A stretch of 64,000 nt of DNA, from NCBI GenBank assembly GCA_021797675.1, contig JAJZZH010000036.1, positions 1-64,000 of the forward strand, given 5' to 3'. The position numbers and the translations under genes were made by a program. The notes below the pieces were generated by a model. It saw only the letters and a program-made list of their open reading frames with translations. It ran no database searches and was not told where the DNA came from. How positions within the stretch are numbered: the first letter of the stretch is position 1; each line of letters begins with the position of its first letter. Source of the DNA: Bacillota bacterium (lineage in GTDB: Bacteria; Bacillota; Sulfobacillia; Sulfobacillales; Sulfobacillaceae). Below, piece by piece: positions 73 to 11,151 of the stretch.

Positions 73-1710
73 TCACACAAATACTAAACGGGGAAGTCTG
101 AGGCCTGATAAATAGCGACTTGGCGACGTTCGCGGAGCGACATTTTGTAACACCAGTACAAGGTCCTTGGGTGAGGCTTTCTCTGACGGGCGACGGGTCA
201 CCCCGACGACGGTTTCCTGGCGGACCTGCCCCGTTTTCCCCGATCGTCGTTGTACGTTCGAGGACAAAGCCTTGCTGGGAACATCGAGGTAGGCGTTCAG
301 GGCCGTACTGGCTCGCCAGGACCGATGGGCGATGCGCCCGTGCCCTTTCTCCAGCGTTTCGGCCGGAGCGAAAAACGCGTCGGGGGACAACGCCCGGAGG
401 TCCGCTTCGAGGGTGGTGGGCGGATTCCCCTTGGCAATCACGAGGTAATCCGCGTGCTTGCCCCCCACGAGCTAGGTGGCCAGGTCCGGTGGGGTGTGCA
501 TAGCATCGCCCGTGACGAGGGCGCCCTGCAGATCGAGGGAGTCGAGGAGGGGATAGGCGGCGGGAATTTCGTTGGATTTCTCGTCGACTTCCGTCTGAGC
601 GAGGACGCGGGTGGTGCCATAGACGACCGCGGAGACCAGATGGCGCGCTTTCGCCGTCTCGCTGCGCGAGCCGCGCACGGTTTTTCCATCGAAGGCCACC
701 GCATCGGGCACGCCCTGCTCGCGCATCCATTCGGTCAAAATCCGATCCAAGGCCTCGACATCACTACGCTGCAGGGCCCGCCGAATCGCGGCTTCGCTCG
801 GCGGGACATAGCGGCCCTTCCACCGAGCCGCCTGGAGCGTGGCCAGTTGGTCTTGGGTTAAGGTCGCGGCCCACTCGCCAATGGCTAACAAACTGGTGCA
901 GCCGGCGGCGATGGCGGCTAAGGCGATGGTGAGGATGGTGATGTACGCGTGGCGCACGCCGCGCGGCTTGCGGACGTCCGGCAGAACCGCTAAGCGGGCC
1001 ATGAGGCTCCGGGGATGGTGTACTAAAGATTCCGTCGACAAGGTGATCGTCCCCCGTTGGGCAATCAAAGCGGGCGCGTCCCACACGGCGGTGAGCCACG
1101 CCCGCGCCTGCGGCACCAACGGCCGCACCGCAACGTGTTTGGCCTGACCATGCCACACATAGGTTCCCTGGTGGCGCCCAAAGCCGAGGGTCAGGCCCAC
1201 GGTTTGCCAATTGGCCGCGCGATAGACCGTCCCGCGGAAGCGGGACGGGTCAATAAAGGTTTCGGCCAATATCACGGGATGGCCGTGGATAGCCTGCCAG
1301 TCGCGAGCCAAGCGCCGCAGCGCCAAGCCGAGGACGCGGGATCCCAAATTGGGGACATGCGCGTCGGGCAGGATAAGAAACCGCGCATTGTTGGCCACAA
1401 ACCGCAAGCGCCGCCGGCGTTGCTCCGGCGTCCAGCCAATCCAAGCGTCCCGAGCGCGGCACCGATAGGCGGCAGCCGTCCATCCGAGTAACGCGACCCA
1501 CTGGCCGTTCCACTCCGCGACTTGATACAGGCGCTCCCCGACAAAACCGGGAAACCCTAAATAATGATGGCGTGCCATCAACTCCTGCCAGCGCGCGACT
1601 TCGTCGCGCGCCACCAGGCGGACGGTGATCTCCCGTATAGGAACCGATATCATGGAAGGTTCTGGTTTCATAATCCAATGATATACCTGTGAAAAGAGGC
1701 TGTCCACCAT
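73..1710 (-). pseudogene. Interrupted DUF4338 (DruA-like)-ISAs1 fusion transposase
   Basis: The first part (about residues 20-210) resembles DUF4338, the domain of Druantia protein DruA (motifs HHYLGF, WIGWTPEQR, FRGTVYRAANW). The second part is an ISAs1-type DDE transposase (DVRKPRGVRHAY, VAFDGKTVRGS, then GDAMHT). The frame runs from 1710 to an in-frame TAG at 472-474 just after the GDAMH motif. It then continues in the same frame (GGKHADYLVIAKGNPPTTL) to about 135, where similarity stops before the usual GHWGIEN region. The copy is therefore both nonsense-interrupted and truncated. DUF4338-ISAs1 fusions are known as a transposase architecture, so a defence role here is not implied. No terminal repeats were located. 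The start is uncertain: ATG codons at 1671 and 1656 are alternatives. Confidence 0.8.
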
Positions 1711-2665: not shown

Positions 2666-3613
2666 TTATTGCAGGCGTTGTCGAATCGCGTCAATCTCGG
2701 CCTCCGACAACCCCGTCACTTCCGCAATCTCCGCCGGCATGATGCCTTTGCTGAGCATCTTGGTTGCGATCTCAATCGCCTTGAGTTGTTCGCCTTCGTC
2801 CCGTCCCTCCTTATGGCCTTCGTCCCGTCCCTCCCGACGGCCTTCATCCCGTCCCTCCTTATGGCCTTCGTCCCATCCTTCCCGACGGCCTTCATCCCGT
2901 CCCTTTTCTTCAGCGTTGGCAATTGCGGACGCATAATCATGCAACGCCTTCTCCCGAGCTTCATAGAGCAGTCGTGTCTGTTCATCGTGACTCAGAAATT
3001 CGAGGGTAGTCAACGCTTTTTCCATCATGGGATCCCCCTTTACCAATGTTTCCAGTTGTGCCGACGTTCTTAAGCTCAGAAACAGGAGCCACCGGAGGAG
3101 TCGGGACGTCGTAGCCAAGATCCGTTGCTGAATCTTGGGCAGTTCCAGAAAATGGATGGCGAGATGGTCGGTGAGCACCAGTCCCGCCGCATTCCTGACG
3201 TGAAACACATTATGGTATTGGTCATTCGCAATCTCTGCGAAGGCGAGTACATTGATGGCAATCGCCGGATGCAAGGTGTTATACGTGTCGCCCCCATGCA
3301 GTTCGCTTTCGTAGAGTCTGGCCCAATAGTACAGGCTACGCACGCGCATATCTCCGTAGTTCCGAATTTGGACTTCAATATTGACGAGCGTGCGTGCCTC
3401 GGTCCGCGCACGAATGTCGAGCACGGACATCTTGTCGGTCAGCGCATCCTTGTCAATGAAGGGATTCAGCAGCTGCACCGATTCCACCAACGGGTCGCCC
3501 GAATCCTCAAAGATGCCATTGAGGAACGCGATTAAGACATCGCTATTCTGCTCGTCCCCGAAAATCCGCTTAAAGAGAAAATCCACCAGCGGACTCAAGA
3601 GCTCCTCTGACAT
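2666..3613 (-). CDS. Rpn family (PD-(D/E)XK) recombination-promoting nuclease / putative transposase
   Basis: This 315-residue protein starts at ATG 3613 behind a clear AGGAGGTG ribosome site. The N-terminal two thirds match the Rpn/PDDEXK transposase-like family: an opening LSPLVDFLFKRIFGDEQN, then VLDIRARTEARTLVNIEVQI, which carries the D...E-x-Q nuclease residues, and RSLYYWARLYESEL. Around residues 225-265 lies a highly charged repeat built on (E/D)G(R/H)(D/R/K) units, presumably helical. The C-terminal tail (KMLSKGIMPAEIAEVTGLS) looks like a small helix-turn-helix. Members of the family promote RecA-independent recombination and are often multicopy. A broken partial copy lies directly downstream. 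The gene appears intact; its role in this organism is unknown. Confidence 0.85.
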   Translation of the reverse strand: MSEELLSPLVDFLFKRIFGDEQNSDVLIAFLNGIFEDSGDPLVESVQLLNPFIDKDALTDKMSVLDIRARTEARTLVNIEVQIRNYGDMRVRSLYYWARLYESELHGGDTYNTLHPAIAINVLAFAEIANDQYHNVFHVRNAAGLVLTDHLAIHFLELPKIQQRILATTSRLLRWLLFLSLRTSAQLETLVKGDPMMEKALTTLEFLSHDEQTRLLYEAREKALHDYASAIANAEEKGRDEGRREGWDEGHKEGRDEGRREGRDEGHKEGRDEGEQLKAIEIATKMLSKGIMPAEIAEVTGLSEAEIDAIRQRLQ

Positions 3614-4113
3614 TTTCACACCTCCTAAGGACCTGGTGCAAAACTCGGAAAAATCGCCTTTCGGGGATCGCAGCCACACAGGTTGCAGGATTCTAGATCT
3701 GGCATTTTGGGACTTATGCATCAGCCTCTTGACTAAGATGGTTACTCTTATTTTACCCGAGATGAACCGATCTGTCTTTAGACGTAGACATATAGAAGGG
3801 TGCCAGTCGATGCGCGCACAGTGTCGCAATTCGTGCGGCTATCATTTGCTGCCACGCTCCAACGTCGGGAACTACCCAGGCTTCTGGCCGCTCGACTACG
3901 GCAGGTGGCCTCGATCTACAGGGCAAGGGCTCTTTGGCCGACGAGGAAGTGGAAGTGATACCGTTTCCTGGGTCGCAATCGCCGAATTCCAGGATGTCGC
4001 GGGCTCCCTCGCAAAGTGGCAGTAGCCCAGTGATTGGCCGGGAACAGACGAATCCACCCAGAGCTTCCTCTTCAGGATCCGAGGCGCCGGTATCGCCGTG
4101 CGCAATGGGCCTC
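3614..4113. other. Intergenic, nothing recognised
   Basis: About 500 bases upstream of the rpn gene contain no frame with a recognisable domain on either strand. The rpn promoter presumably lies in its first 150 bases, but no convincing -35/-10 pair was found. Confidence 0.4.
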
Positions 4114-4608: not shown

Positions 4609-5895
4609 TTATCCCCGCGAAGTCGCCTTGAGAGCCACCAAGGATCCACGGGGCGGCCCGTCTACGGCCGCCTGGGAAGCCTCCACGGCGATGAGGCTGA
4701 CGGGGTGAAAAATCCATCGCCGGCCGGCGTGAAGATACACGCCCCCCTGCCCATGACGGTGAAAGTACGCCGTCCGTGGAATCAGCACCACCTTGACTAA
4801 GCGACGGGTGACGATTTCGAGGGGCTGGGGCAGATTGGCCATCTTAGGGCGCAGCGTTCCTTCCTCCTGCCCATAAAACCAGACCCCGGGGTGTCCCCGG
4901 TAGCGGACGATGGTCCGCGTGACATATCGCACCTTCCCGACCGTCCGCCCGTGCCAAACGATGCGCTCGCCAGCATGTACGCGCGACGCCAGCGACGCAG
5001 TCACAAAACCTTTCCAGGGCAGCACCGGCGTGCGTTTGGGCTCGACCACGCCCAGGGTTTGGCCCGCCGTGACGAACGACGACGACGGTACGGTAATCCG
5101 CAATCGTCCCTGCGCCGGACTCTGGAGGGGCTGGTCCCTCTGCCTGAGGATGTCCCAGGTATCCTTGGCCGCACGGGCCGTCGCCAGGTCCTGCACGACG
5201 GATGTCCGATACACCGCCAGAACGGGACCAACCGCTAGAAAACGCCCTGCCGTATGGTACCGCGAGACCGCTGCCGCTAGCTCTGCTCGCGCATGGTCCC
5301 ACGCTCGCGTGGCCTGACGCAGGTCCGTTCCTAGCGCCCACCGAAAGGTTGGAGCCTCCGAAGCCGCCCTGACCGTTTTCAGCCCCGCCCGCGCCCGAAG
5401 GACCCGGGTGTAGCGCTGTTGAACCGCATCCGCGGCGGCTAGCCAGGCCTGCCGAGCGCTCTGCAGATTAGCCTCGGCGGGGGTCCGCTGCATCGCGAGT
5501 TGACGCTTGGCGACGGTCACGGCGGCCTGGGCAGCCTTCCACGACTCGTACGCCGCTCCCAGCGACAGCTTGAAGAAAGGGGGAACCACGCTGCAAAGTG
5601 ACTGCCCGTGGCCGACCATGGCCCGCTGCCCCGCATGCGGCAGCCAGTTGAGCGTTCCGTTCCAGGGAGCCCTCAGGGGAAGCGGCGGTGAACGCCGCCA
5701 CCATCCCGTGGCGGCCAGGCCAACCACCATCGTCCCCTGATGCGCCCTGGCCCGGGGCACGGATACGCCGGGAGCACGCATGGGACGGACCGAAAGATAG
5801 GTGCCGAAGGCCATCATCCCCAAGCCCAGACCAGCCGCCATCAGCAAGCCGCTGCGGCGCCCCGACACCGACCTCCACGCCGTGCCCGCCACCAT
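4609..5895 (-). CDS. HlyD-type membrane fusion protein of the bacteriocin exporter
   Basis: This 428-residue protein starts at ATG 5895, overlapping the stop of the C39-peptidase gene (TAATG), so the two are translationally coupled. One membrane segment is seen near residues 14-33 (SGLLMAAGLGLGMMAFGTYL). Two half biotinyl-lipoyl motifs follow (LRAPWNGTLNWLPHAGQ and LQSPAQGRLRITVPSSSF). They flank an alpha-helical, alanine- and glutamine-rich stretch typical of the adaptor's coiled-coil hairpin, and a beta-rich C-terminal part follows. Proteins of this type join an ABC exporter to the outside of the cell in Gram-positive bacteriocin systems. The family call rests on architecture rather than strong signature residues. 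Confidence 0.75.
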   Translation of the reverse strand: MVAGTAWRSVSGRRSGLLMAAGLGLGMMAFGTYLSVRPMRAPGVSVPRARAHQGTMVVGLAATGWWRRSPPLPLRAPWNGTLNWLPHAGQRAMVGHGQSLCSVVPPFFKLSLGAAYESWKAAQAAVTVAKRQLAMQRTPAEANLQSARQAWLAAADAVQQRYTRVLRARAGLKTVRAASEAPTFRWALGTDLRQATRAWDHARAELAAAVSRYHTAGRFLAVGPVLAVYRTSVVQDLATARAAKDTWDILRQRDQPLQSPAQGRLRITVPSSSFVTAGQTLGVVEPKRTPVLPWKGFVTASLASRVHAGERIVWHGRTVGKVRYVTRTIVRYRGHPGVWFYGQEEGTLRPKMANLPQPLEIVTRRLVKVVLIPRTAYFHRHGQGGVYLHAGRRWIFHPVSLIAVEASQAAVDGPPRGSLVALKATSRG

Positions 5896-7259
5896 TATTT
5901 CGCATCCTCCCAAAAGTCGTGCAAACGATACAAGGAAGGTTGGGCAACCTGCCAAGCCACATATTTCTGGTACAGACTGTGAATCGCCGAGGTAAGATAG
6001 TTGACCAGGAAGAGCGTGCTAAGCAGCGGCGCCGTCCCCGGCGAGATTCCATGACGCAACCCAATTAACAGCAGAACCGCCAAAATGCCCAAAGCCGGCG
6101 TTTGACTGACCGCCACGCCGATGGGAATCGACCACAAGGTTTGCCGAAAGGTAACGTCGACCAACCCGTTCCAGCTGGCAAACACGGGCTCGGGCGCCTT
6201 CCCCCAGGCTTGGCGCAGCGCATTGTTCAAACGTGCCGATTTTAGCCGCACCTGATAGAGGTAGTCGCGCATGCGGCCTACGAACGGAGCGAGGCCACTT
6301 AATATCACCATCATCAGCCCGGAGAAGAACACCGCCAATGCGGGTTGCCGGTATAGCAGATAGCCCAGCGTACCCAGAGCCACGGTCAGCGTGTAGGGAA
6401 AATCCCGGGCCAAGCCCAAGATGACGTCGACCACGCTCTGCACATCCTGAAAACGGGTATAAGCGTCCCCCACGGTGAAAAAATGTGTGTTCAGCCGAGG
6501 GAACGCCGACTCCAACAGAAGGCCCCCGCGGTGGTTCAGCCGTCGCCGCAAAGACGCCGCCCACCAGGCGGTAAAGGCCGAAAGCACCAGGCTCACACCC
6601 AAAAACCCTGCCGTAATCGCCTCCAAGCGGGGCAAATCGGAGAGATAAAACGGCATAAAGATCGAAAACGCCGCGTTGGTTACGCCCAGCAACGTCGCTG
6701 GCCCGGCTAGCAGGATCAATCCACCCCAATCACGGCCGACCATCCGCCGAACCAGCGGCCGAACCGCGGGTCTGCTGCAACGGACGTCGCCCCCGCCTCG
6801 GCGCGGAATCAACACAATCGTGATGCCGTCCCAATATTGCAAGAAGGTGGACAACGGCATCCGCTGCAGTCCGTTGCCGGGGTCGCCAATCATCACCCCG
6901 GACGGGTCTACCGCCCATACCACCACGAAATGCTCCTGTTGCGGCCAAAACGCGATAAATGGCAACCCACCCGGATCCAATTGGCCAGGTTTTTGGCGTC
7001 CTAATCGAACCTGGAACAGGTCGCTGAGCCCCAGCTGAAACTGTTTAATGGTGGTGCCTTGCACGGGGTCCGTGACCAGGCGGCGCCGTACCTCGCCTAA
7101 GGAAATCGATATTCCATACCACTCCGCAATCGCCATGACGCAGGCCGGGGCGCAGTCGTTCGCCGCCAATTGAAAATGGAACGGCACCACCGCTCCACGG
7201 CCACGTGATTTCAAAGCCATCAACCTTACCGTGCTCAGGCAAACATAACCGCCGAGCAC
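5895..7259 (-). CDS. C39 peptidase-ABC membrane-domain protein lacking the ATPase domain
   Basis: This protein of about 454 residues would cleave double-glycine leaders and export the peptide. The N-terminal 140 residues form a C39 peptidase: QLAANDCAPACVMAIAEWYG holds the oxyanion Gln and catalytic Cys, EHFVVVWAVD the catalytic His, and GDPGNG the Asp. About six membrane segments follow (from GGLILLAGPATLLGVTNAAF to the segment around LVNYLTSAIHSLYQ). The protein ends at YRLHDFWEDAK, where the ATPase linker would begin. Usual family members are about 700 residues and carry a nucleotide-binding domain. Here the stop codon overlaps the start of the HlyD gene, so the short form looks genuine. 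The GTG start at 7259 is chosen because GGAGG lies upstream; ATG at 7274 or 7220 is possible. Confidence 0.85.
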   Translation of the reverse strand: MLGGYVCLSTVRLMALKSRGRGAVVPFHFQLAANDCAPACVMAIAEWYGISISLGEVRRRLVTDPVQGTTIKQFQLGLSDLFQVRLGRQKPGQLDPGGLPFIAFWPQQEHFVVVWAVDPSGVMIGDPGNGLQRMPLSTFLQYWDGITIVLIPRRGGGDVRCSRPAVRPLVRRMVGRDWGGLILLAGPATLLGVTNAAFSIFMPFYLSDLPRLEAITAGFLGVSLVLSAFTAWWAASLRRRLNHRGGLLLESAFPRLNTHFFTVGDAYTRFQDVQSVVDVILGLARDFPYTLTVALGTLGYLLYRQPALAVFFSGLMMVILSGLAPFVGRMRDYLYQVRLKSARLNNALRQAWGKAPEPVFASWNGLVDVTFRQTLWSIPIGVAVSQTPALGILAVLLLIGLRHGISPGTAPLLSTLFLVNYLTSAIHSLYQKYVAWQVAQPSLYRLHDFWEDAK

Positions 7260-7486
7260 CGCCCCCTCCTTCATCGAGTTTTGGCTTGCCTATGCATGGC
7301 TTGCCGGCTTCCCGCAGATCTTGGGTTATCCTATGCCCAATCGTTGCCCTCCGGCGCCGAGCGCGAGGGGTGGCACGGGACGTTCGGAAAACCGCCTTCA
7401 CCCACGACCGTCACCGCGCCGGCCATGCCCGCCGCAACCAAGGATTCACCACTGGCCGGAGGCGGTTGCCCCGTTCGGCAAAGCGG

Positions 7487-7879
7487 CTACAAACGCCCGT
7501 GATGCACCACCAGTGCAATGATGATTCCGATCACGAAAATACCGCCACCGGCGATCACCGACCATTGAAAGACCCGTTGCAACGGCATGCCCCACAGTCG
7601 GCCCGCCGGTAACGAACCGCGCGCCCCTTGGTACAGCAAGAAGAGACCAACCAAAATCAGCACCGTGGGGAGAAATTGCACGAGGTAATCGACGACGACG
7701 GGCAAAGTGGCAAAATAGCGACCGGCCGCCAGCCTGTCTTCGATCAAAAACAGAAAACACAGCGACCCGAGCATGATCATTCCGGCGCGATACGAGCGCG
7801 ACAAGAACCGCCAACGCCAAACCGTGGCACTGGTTCCAAAAATCAACGCAAATACCAAGAGCTCTTGGCTGCTACCCAT
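7487..7879 (-). CDS. Small multispanning membrane protein of the bacteriocin operon (possible immunity)
   Basis: This 130-residue, strongly hydrophobic protein has about four predicted membrane segments: residues 6-20, 32-48, 62-84 and 108-126. It ends in a short basic tail (VVHHGRL). It lies between the precursor gene and the peptidase/exporter gene on the same strand. ATG 7879 is preceded by GAGGGCGG and overlaps the stop of a tiny upstream frame. No conserved family is recognised. Position, size and topology fit a bacteriocin immunity protein or an export accessory subunit; this is inference only. A gap of about 230 bases separates it from the exporter gene. Confidence 0.7.
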   Translation of the reverse strand: MGSSQELLVFALIFGTSATVWRWRFLSRSYRAGMIMLGSLCFLFLIEDRLAAGRYFATLPVVVDYLVQFLPTVLILVGLFLLYQGARGSLPAGRLWGMPLQRVFQWSVIAGGGIFVIGIIIALVVHHGRL

Positions 7880-8026: not shown

Positions 8027-8335
8027 TTAAAAGGCGGAGGACACCGCTCCCCACACCCAGCCAATGCCGCCGCCCAAGAAGGCTCCGGCAGCCCCTCCAA
8101 CGGCAGCTTGCGGCACGGAAAATACGCAAGCAGAGTCCGCACACCCAGCAATGCCACCCACCACGGCTCCCGCGCCGCCGCCAATAAAGGCACCCGCCGT
8201 GCCATCTTGGTTGGCCTGACTGATCCAACTTCCTCCGCCCTGCAACGCCAACTCATCGGCGGTTAAAGGCTCCAATGCTAGACTGTCGGCGGAAATCCGC
8301 AAATTGAAATCTGCCGAACGGGTTTCTTCGTGCAT
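8027..8335 (-). CDS. Double-glycine-leader bacteriocin-like peptide precursor
   Basis: This 102-residue precursor starts at ATG 8335 behind AAGGAGGAGG. The leader of about 34 residues is acidic and ends LTADELALQGGG, close to the class II consensus (L, T/S, E-L, then GG). Cleavage is expected after Gly34 or Gly35, since register slightly favours the latter. The mature part of about 67 residues is rich in Gly and Ala with GxxxG spacing (AGAFIGGGAGAVVGGIAG and AVGGAAGAFLGGGIGWVWGA). It has two cysteines in CADSAC that could form a disulfide. Such glycine-zipper helices are typical of pore-forming class II bacteriocins. A C39 peptidase gene downstream in the same operon supports the call. No second peptide gene was found nearby. 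Confidence 0.8.
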   Translation of the reverse strand: MHEETRSADFNLRISADSLALEPLTADELALQGGGSWISQANQDGTAGAFIGGGAGAVVGGIAGCADSACVFSVPQAAVGGAAGAFLGGGIGWVWGAVSSAF

Positions 8336-8365
8336 ATTGCTTGCTAACCTCCTCCTTCAAAATGA

Positions 8366-8386
8366 GCCTTCGGACGCACCGAAGGC
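8366..8386 (-). promoter_or_regulatory. Perfect hairpin at the 5' end of the bacteriocin mRNA
   Basis: GCCTTCGG and CCGAAGGC form a perfect 8-bp stem around a five-base loop. It begins about seven bases past the -10 box, so it sits at the very 5' end of the predicted transcript and about ten bases before the ribosome site. It could stabilise the mRNA or bind a regulator. Confidence 0.65.
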
Positions 8387-8392
8387 AAGCAT

Positions 8393-8422
8393 AGTATAAA
8401 ATGCATAGAATCTACCAGTCAA
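8393..8422 (-). promoter_or_regulatory. Sigma-A promoter of the bacteriocin operon
   Basis: On the minus strand TTGACT (8422-8417) and TATACT (8398-8393) are separated by 18 bases. An AT-only stretch with AATATT repeats (8425-8440) lies directly upstream and could act as an UP element or an operator. The local AT content contrasts with the GC-rich surroundings. Confidence 0.75.
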
Positions 8423-8911: not shown

Positions 8912-9520
8912 ATGGAACGCACATTAACCCGTCATGAAGTGGCTCACTTGCTTGGGGTGAACGTCAAGACGATACAACGGTGGGATCGCGAGGGCCGACT
9001 CAAGCCCGCCGGTCGGACGGCAACGGGGCGTCGCTATTACACCGAAGATCAAATTGTTGCCTCTCCGACATCAGCGGCCTGCCACGACGGGTCCTCGTAA
9101 GACCGTGGCGTATTGCCGAGTCAGTCGTCAGAGCCAGCGGCCCGATTTGAAGAACCAACGGGTCGCACGGGAACCGTTCTGTACCGCCCGCGGGCTCGCT
9201 AATGTGGAGTTTGTCGAGGAAGTCGGTGGCGGCATGAACTTTGGCCGCAAGCGGTTTTTAGCCTTGATGGATGCCGTGAATGCCGGGGAAATCGGCACGT
9301 TGATTCTGGCCCATCAAGACCGATTGCCTCGGTTTGGTGTTCGAGCGATTCTGCCACCAACACGGGTGCGAGATTTTAGTCCTCCACCAAGAGCACTGGT
9401 CGCCCGAGCAAGAGTTGGTCCAAGACCTACTCACCATTATGCAGGTCTTTTCAGCCCGGTTGTACGAATTACGGAACTATCGCAAGAGCTTAAAGGAGGC
9501 CATCCATGCCGACGTTAGCC
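8912..9520 (+). pseudogene. tnpA: Frameshifted IS607-type serine recombinase (TnpA)
   Basis: The N-terminal MerR-like helix-turn-helix (HEVAHLLGVNVKTIQRWDRE, then RRYYTEDQI) is intact. The serine-recombinase domain follows in a second frame from about 9100 (TVAYCRVSRQSQRPDLKNQ, LILAHQDRLPRFG). The C-terminal part lies in a third frame from about 9334 (CEILVLHQEH, ELVQDLLTIMQVFSARLYEL). At least two frameshifts, near 9095 and 9330, split it. The catalytic Ser in YCRVSRQSQ is still present, but no full-length protein can be made. Confidence 0.85.
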
Positions 9521-10660
9521 CACAAGATCCGACGCCGGATCAGATCCGATTCTTTAAGCAAGCCGCCGGTACCGCGCGGTTGGTTTGGAACTGGGCGCTG
9601 GCCGAATGGGACTGACAATATGAGGCCGGGCAAAAACCCCAAGCCTCTACATTAAAGAAGCAGTTTAACGCTCTGAAGTACGAGCGGTTTCCGTGGCTGC
9701 GCGACGTGCACCGAGATGCTCATGCTCAGCCGTTTGCGGATTTAGCGGATGCCTGGCATCGCTTCTTTACCGGGCAGAACGAACGCCCGGCGTTTAAGAA
9801 AAAAGGGGAAACCTCCGACAGTTTCTATGTGGCGAACGATACGTTTCAGATTGTCGACCGCCGCGTGAAACTGCCCAAAATCGGCTGGGTGCGCTTGCGC
9901 GAATCGCTCCGATTCCCCGGCAAAATCTTGGGCGCCCGGATGGTTCGTGAAGCCGATCAATGGTTTTTCGCGGTGCACGTGTCCAGGCCTGATTCCATCA
10001 ATTATCGGACCCGCACGGGGCATGGCGTGGATGTCGTGAAGACCTTCGCCACCCTGTCCACCAGCGACAAGATCGCGGGGCCGAAAGCCCCTCGCCGCGC
10101 TTTGCGCCGCTTCAAAAGACGTCAACGCGCCATCACCCGGACCATGCAAGCCGCCAAAGTTCAGATGGGCTTGGCTTCGCAAGATCCGCTCCCGAAAGGA
10201 ACGCGGTTGCCGCGCGGCCGGAATTGGGACCAGGCCAAAAACCACGTCGCCCGGACCCATTTTCGGGTCGCGAATCTTCGCCGCGATTTCTTGCCCAAAA
10301 CGTCCACGGACCTCTGTCGCAAAAACCAAGCCACCGGGAGCGAAACGTTGTCGGATGACGAATCATCGGTTGGCGCGGAGCATCACAGACCAGGGGTTTG
10401 GTCAGTTCTTTGCTTTGCTGCAATATAAAGCCGGTCGGTACGGAACGCAATGGACCGAAGCCCACCGCTGGTTTCCCAGCAGCAAACTGTGTTCGACGCC
10501 TGGTTGTGGCTATCTCAAGAACGATCTCACCTTAAAAGACCGTGTGTGGACTGGTCCATCGTGCGGAATGACGCATGATCGGGACATTAACGCGGCAATG
10601 ACCCTGAAAGGGCTGGCAACCCCAACTGCCCTACCTGTAGCGACGGCTTCGGGGCAGGCA
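9506..10660 (+). pseudogene. tnpB: Degenerate TnpB RNA-guided nuclease of the IS607-type element
   Basis: A start at ATG 9506 follows AAAGGAGG. The reading shifts frame near 9530 (DPTPDQIRFFKQAAGTARL). It meets TGA at 9613-9615, then continues (DVHRDAHAQPFADLADAW, VKLPKIGWVRLRESLRFPGK). The first RuvC motif reads GHGVDVVKTFATLS, several residues shorter than the family's usual GVDLGVTT. The second RuvC region near 10330 is lost to another frameshift. The C-terminal zinc motif retains CSTPGC but reads WTGPSC where TnpB proteins have WTCPSC. It is clearly inactive. Confidence 0.88.
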
Positions 10661-10661
10661 G

Positions 10662-10693
10662 AAATCGGGGTGCACTATTGCGCACCCCGATTT
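10662..10693 (+). repeat. 12-bp perfect hairpin at the right side of the IS607-type element
   Basis: AAATCGGGGTGC and GCACCCCGATTT pair perfectly around an eight-base loop, followed by TATT. It lies directly after the TnpB coding remnant, where the right-end guide RNA of such elements is expected. It could be part of that RNA or a terminator. Confidence 0.6.
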
Positions 10694-11151
10694 TATTACC
10701 GAGGATGGACCAGGCTCCTGGCCCCCGCGTTGGCAGCTGGGGGTCGTGTCTGGCACCGAAGAAGCCTTCGCGGACATCGAATCCTGGGGTGCGGGGCTAC
10801 GGCAGCGCTGGGCCGAGGCGATCCAGGGAGCTTACGCGCGAGCCCAGATCAACACCCACTGCGGAATAATGCGGTCATCACCGACGCATTCCTCCGGCGC
10901 CGTTCGGGTAGGGAGGACCGCCAGCGCAGCCCTTCCCGTCTCCGCGTCGGGACGGAGCAGCCACCGCCACTCCTCAAAGCGCATCGAGGCCTCGGGAGTC
11001 CGATCGACATGCCTGCCGCCGGTGGCCACATCAGTCCTTGCCCGCTGCGGGATGGCGTCCCAAGACCTGGCCCGGATCTTCCGGAGACTCGGCGCTATCT
11101 TCCCTGAACTCCATCTCGGACCGTACTCCCCGTGGCTCAGGGTACGACGGA
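10694..11151. other. Intergenic, nothing recognised
   Basis: A plus-strand frame from 10746 (GTEEAFADIESWGAGLRQRW) looks protein-like for about 40 residues and then loses coherence. It could be a fragment of a lost gene. No domain can be named. Confidence 0.35.

Follow-up and report, generated by a model that had tools for sequence, protein, structure and literature searches.

The closest described systems are the peptidase-containing ABC transporters (PCATs) and related C39 exporters of bacteriocins and other peptides with double-glycine (DG) leaders, such as PCAT1 (PDB 4ry2, 6v9z), ComA, LcnC and CvaB. A PCAT is a protein of about 720-750 aa in which an N-terminal C39 peptidase domain with catalytic Cys, His and Asp is followed by an ABC-exporter membrane domain and a C-terminal nucleotide-binding domain. 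In ABC exporters coupling helix 1 touches the ATPase. Class II bacteriocins, most of which are cationic, are unmodified peptides made as short precursors with a DG leader of the L-12/E-8/L-7 pattern and linked to a C39 peptidase, an HlyD-like accessory protein and a small membrane protein. A C39 peptidase can also act outside an ABC transporter, as in FapD of Pseudomonas amyloid secretion, a periplasmic protein with a Sec signal and no ATPase that serves amyloid export (PMC5557850). Finally, among enterocins, the ABC systems AS-48EFGH and MR10EFGH, the latter made up of a 163-aa protein (mr10E), an adaptor (F), a 227-aa ATPase (G) and a permease (H), are thought to remove a pore-forming bacteriocin from its producer (PMC8306556).

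Here we compare with these systems a locus in a 64,000-nucleotide stretch of DNA (the window) from a genome of the Sulfobacillaceae, an acidophile-type family, in line with a preliminary description of the same DNA that had spoken of an acidophile-type genome. We consider it likely that the locus is an operon of the bacteriocin type in an acidophilic bacterium of the Sulfobacillus family, with a DG precursor cut by a C39 protein, a secreted Gly-rich peptide and a 130-aa immunity protein.

The precursor is encoded by an ORF of 102 codons on the minus strand (8335-8027; all operon features below are on this strand), and the ORF list with translations placed it exactly where and as previously described. 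Its 34-aa leader MHEETRSADFNLRISADSLALEPLTADELALQGG (8234-8335) ends in LTADELALQGGG, with a predicted cut site of LEPLTADELALQGG followed by G, that is after G34 or G35. The leader follows the pattern L24-x-x-D-E28-L29-x-L-x-G-G(G), then SW, with a spacing one residue shorter than that of class II leaders unless the cut follows the third G. Such a short precursor with a double-glycine leader is of the class II type. The mature part (8030-8233) would be 68 aa, or 67 if the cut follows the third G, close to the length of about 67 residues given earlier. It is Gly/Ala rich and hydrophobic (GRAVY 0.85) as in class II bacteriocins, and the motif CADSAC with its two cysteines sits between two GxxxG-rich halves (8 GxxxG pairs vs 3.8 in shuffles, p=0.008). 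The double-glycine leader, GxxxG richness and two cysteines of the preliminary description are thus all borne out. Unlike most class II bacteriocins the mature part is acidic, with a predicted charge of -2.6 at pH 7 and about +1 at pH 2.

The start codon is preceded by a purine-rich Shine-Dalgarno-like sequence AAGGAGGAGG (8348-8357), with the ATG 12 nt further. Upstream lies a sigma-70-like promoter TTGACT-18-TATACT (8393-8422; 10/12 consensus matches), a pattern found about as often as expected by chance (2 sites in 5.5 kb vs 1.9), so that the site is argued for by its position alone and by itself is weak evidence. Between it and the ribosome site, in the presumed 5' untranslated region, is an 8-bp hairpin GCCTTCGGTGCGTCCGAAGGC (8366-8386) with a terminator-like tail, possibly an attenuator or regulator site.

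Downstream of the peptide gene follow three further ORFs. A small membrane protein of 130 aa with at least 3 hydrophobic segments (7487-7879) matches no Pfam family over cut-off and is a candidate immunity protein by its position and by the unrelated membrane proteins that occupy the same slot in relatives. About 750 bp downstream of the peptide gene and in the same direction lies a gene for a C39 peptidase with an ABC-exporter-type transmembrane domain (C39-TMD; 5895-7274, 459 aa; Pfam PF03412, E 3.7e-17), the co-encoded C39 peptidase claimed previously. Comparison with its relative in another genome of the family (G029) makes a start at 7220 more likely, giving 441 aa. The last gene encodes an HlyD/MacA-like adaptor (4609-5955, with a likely start at 5895 giving 428 aa), whose ATG overlaps the C39 stop codon in TAATG and which is 31% identical over 425 columns to the G029 adaptor, itself matching HlyD_3 / RND_mfp. 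None of the four ORFs is broken, the ribosome site is strong and TAATG couples the last two genes.

The C39-TMD protein carries the catalytic residues of PCAT1, ComA, LcnC and CvaB (Q35, C41, H115 and D131), which are invariant in three sequences compared. Its sequence matches PCAT1 residues 20-355, covering the peptidase and much of the membrane domain, and also ComA. A low-confidence structure model (pLDDT 57, pTM 0.43), used for the overall fold only, showed the peptidase and long membrane helices, and Foldseek with this model returned PCAT1 first (E 4e-15), so the ABC-exporter membrane domain is indicated by this search and by the profile match up to PCAT1 residue 355. The protein stops where the PCAT ATPase should start. 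Past Peptidase_C39, Pfam gave nothing above cut-off and no ABC_tran match (PF00005), and the nucleotide-binding domain is absent from the G029 protein too. The window protein is built on the PCAT plan and is not a complete PCAT. A sequencing break was considered and rejected as the G029 protein ends alike and the adaptor starts within the window C39 stop codon. The coupling helix 1 region is strongly conserved (VGDAYTRFQD, aligning with VGEIISRFMD of PCAT1), which would be odd if an ATPase never docked there; the region past coupling helix 2 is unmatched. The missing ATPase domain was overlooked in the preliminary description.

We sought relatives of the C39 protein in 34 genomes of the family and found close ones only there: in G029 (54% identity), G019 (45%) and G004, where the gene is in three pieces. 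Weak matches in two more genomes of the family (G006 and G014) are ordinary PCATs of 736-737 aa with an ATPase domain, and across a sample of 299 genomes of the phylum most of the remaining matches were frames of about 720-750 aa, which are full-length PCATs. A search of viral contigs with the C39 protein gave no relative, and a literature search that left subscription journals mostly outside returned no description of a motorless C39-TMD protein. We make no claim that none occur elsewhere; these proteins are restricted to the family as far as searched.

The relatives share the order of the locus. G029 has two DG peptides (77 and 71 aa), a 153-aa membrane protein, C39-TMD, adaptor, a 231-aa ABC ATPase and a MacB-type (MacB_PCD) permease; G019 has a DG peptide (76 aa), a 182-aa membrane protein and C39-TMD, where the contig ends; and the decayed locus of G004 has a DG-like peptide (80 aa, start uncertain), a 115-aa membrane protein and the C39-TMD pieces. 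In all three, the genes directly upstream of C39-TMD on the same strand thus encode DG-leader peptides and a small membrane protein, and absence of the precursor-peptidase linkage from relatives, which would have spoken against a bacteriocin system, is not what we found: as in bacteriocin systems, the C39 peptidase shares the operon. The cases are few, with 3 intact loci and 1 broken one. Where the small membrane proteins in the putative immunity slot were compared, they did not resemble one another convincingly. By gene content and size the G029 locus is like AS-48EFGH/MR10EFGH in its small membrane protein, adaptor, 231-aa ATPase and MacB-like permease, and the Sulfobacillus-family set differs in having the C39-TMD gene inside it. 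The window locus has the adaptor with neither ATPase nor permease linked, a point also missed previously, and in the window genome we found no relative of the G029 permease and no orthologue of its ATPase, the matches to the latter being at the level of any ABC ATPase (36-38%).

Local alignment scores against shuffles were used to compare leaders and mature parts between loci. Leaders are alike for the window and the first G029 peptide (z 7.1), the window and G019 (z 6.2), G019 and the first G029 peptide (z 4.8) and G019 and G004 (z 4.3), while the second G029 leader showed no likeness to the others by this test. Mature parts can scarcely be told from shuffles, with 0 of 10 pairs beyond z 2.5. 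A single family of mature parts was considered and is unsupported by the shuffles: the G004 peptide is 41% identical (gapped), and its mature part gave p 0.11. Nor is the glycine zipper a family-wide feature since GxxxG is not enriched in the G029 and G019 peptides. A regular expression for DG leaders matched 8 of 1112 small ORFs of family sequence examined, 5 of them, all the C39-adjacent ORFs, directly upstream of a C39-TMD gene in four genomes; it was written after the leaders were seen and the count is descriptive only. A constant leader with a changing cargo and neighbouring membrane protein is the pattern that exchange of bacteriocin/immunity cassettes would leave.

The mature peptide seems to have no detectable named relatives, as judged from sequence searches. 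No Pfam or NCBIfam bacteriocin precursor model matched over cut-off, a result that agrees with the earlier remark that the mature sequence was not recognised as any named bacteriocin; a match would help a bacteriocin assignment and is not necessary for it, the curated models covering known cargo or leader classes and being insensitive to new cargo. Membership of a known non-bacteriocin family had been proposed as grounds for refutation, and only sub-threshold glycine-zipper matches turned up in Pfam/NCBIfam (YiaD/OmpA glycine-zipper and Gly-zipper_Omp, E 0.02-0.05, far below cut-off), which we rejected as composition. PHROGs and NCBIfam assigned no function to the peptides, 61 related genomes gave only low-complexity Gly/Ala matches and plasmids gave none. 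The structure prediction suggested in the preliminary description reached pLDDT 38 and the model is not usable.

Taken with the bacteriocin system proposed there, the leader/peptidase part is supported by the linkage kept in relatives and by alike leaders with unlike cargo, the signature of a bacteriocin-type leader/peptidase system, whereas the usual export system is not what the locus encodes, its C39 protein being without ATPase. In the mechanism that we propose the precursor would be made with its double-glycine leader, the C39 domain of the membrane-bound protein would bind the leader and cut after GG on the cytosolic side, and the adaptor would help the Gly-rich mature peptide out of the cell. 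The peptide, perhaps a helical hairpin closed by a disulfide, would probably insert into membranes of related competitors and the 130-aa membrane protein would protect the producer. With no ATPase domain in the C39-TMD protein, energy would have to come from a separate ABC ATPase, or the protein may be a leader peptidase only and leave export to another transporter; the three serious options are a motor in trans, a leader peptidase working alongside a separate exporter, and a system in partial decay. A more specific version, which we hold tentatively and regard as somewhat doubtful, is a lineage-restricted split PCAT that shed its ATPase, relies on a trans ABC ATPase or a MacAB-like handover, and delivers acid-stable Gly-rich toxins from swapped peptide-plus-immunity cassettes. 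Counting against a bacteriocin-type operon are the lack of a matching bacteriocin family model, the lack of a linked ATPase in the window, the acidic mature peptide, the small number of loci behind the linkage and the unusable peptide model.

Decay of the system could account for the lack of an ATPase in another way: insertion sequences arriving next to the operon would have cost it the ATPase and permease genes and so ended export of the peptide. The transposase and PDDEXK_2 genes on the downstream side, an IS607-like element upstream, the missing orthologues of the G029 ATPase and permease, a second and broken C39-TMD copy in the window genome and the decayed G004 locus would all fit such a remnant. 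However, the four window ORFs are intact with their strong ribosome site and TAATG coupling and the catalytic residues of C39 are kept, and we think a remnant unlikely. That the ORF is no gene at all, a chance frame with a chance GG motif, is hardly credible: many small ORFs occur in this GC-rich DNA (149 of at least 50 aa in 20 kb), but the leader resembles those of the G019 and G029 peptides, which occupy the same place (z 6-7), and this is strong counter-evidence; in addition, a ribosome site and promoter-like site are present.

Other functions for a genuine peptide were also weighed. C39/PCAT systems mature signal peptides too (ComA and PDB relatives), and as killing remains putative the precursor might encode a quorum-sensing type DG-leader signal processed by the C39-TMD protein and sensed by a receptor elsewhere. 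Yet at 67 residues the strongly hydrophobic, Gly/Ala-rich mature part would make a long signal, the mature parts of different loci are unrelated, every locus has a gene for a small membrane protein after its peptide genes and no kinase or regulator gene was recognised within the operon, which makes signalling improbable. It seems to us very improbable that the peptide is a surface component of a structural or amyloid type, an idea drawn from the analogy to FapD, which likewise lacks an ATPase. As a C39 peptidase, FapD is known to work outside an ABC transporter, and its NCBIfam model gives a weak hit to the C39 protein of the window (E 4e-4), but FapD is a periplasmic, stand-alone C39 domain with a Sec signal (PMC5557850) whereas the window protein, which retains a membrane domain of the PCAT type, resembles PCAT much more closely.

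In a title-based literature search we found no bacteriocin of Sulfobacillus described. A peptide suited to low-pH habitats would offer an antimicrobial that is naturally stable in acid. The motorless C39-TMD protein in turn raises the question of whether peptide processing and ATP-driven export are separable in this transporter family, and is a natural construct for testing it.

Mobile elements flank the operon in the window. On its downstream side are a PDDEXK_2 nuclease-family transposase gene (2666-3829, minus strand), whose product has charged repeats (KEGRDEGRREG) in its C-terminal part, and an ORF (472-1710, minus strand) that joins a DruA domain (PF14236) to a DDE_Tnp_1-associated domain and probably codes for a transposase rather than for Druantia defence. 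On the upstream side of the peptide gene lies an IS607-like element (8912-11107, plus strand) with a MerR-like start, resolvase and OrfB_IS605 in several, apparently broken, frames. Further C39 sequences were noted outside the main loci. Contig 50 of the window's own genome (L037:2422-3046) carries the second, broken C39-TMD copy, about 44% identical to that of the window, comprising the membrane part with stops. Besides its decayed peptide/C39 locus (L034:7666-9368), G004 has C39-TMD fragments elsewhere in the chromosome (L035:6801-7170, L036:6836-6952), a sign of repeated gain and loss. In G029 a short C39 gene remnant lies directly upstream of both peptide genes (L032:8440-8523), and G019 has a separate, longer C39-containing frame (L038:877-1257, within an open frame of 1560 aa).
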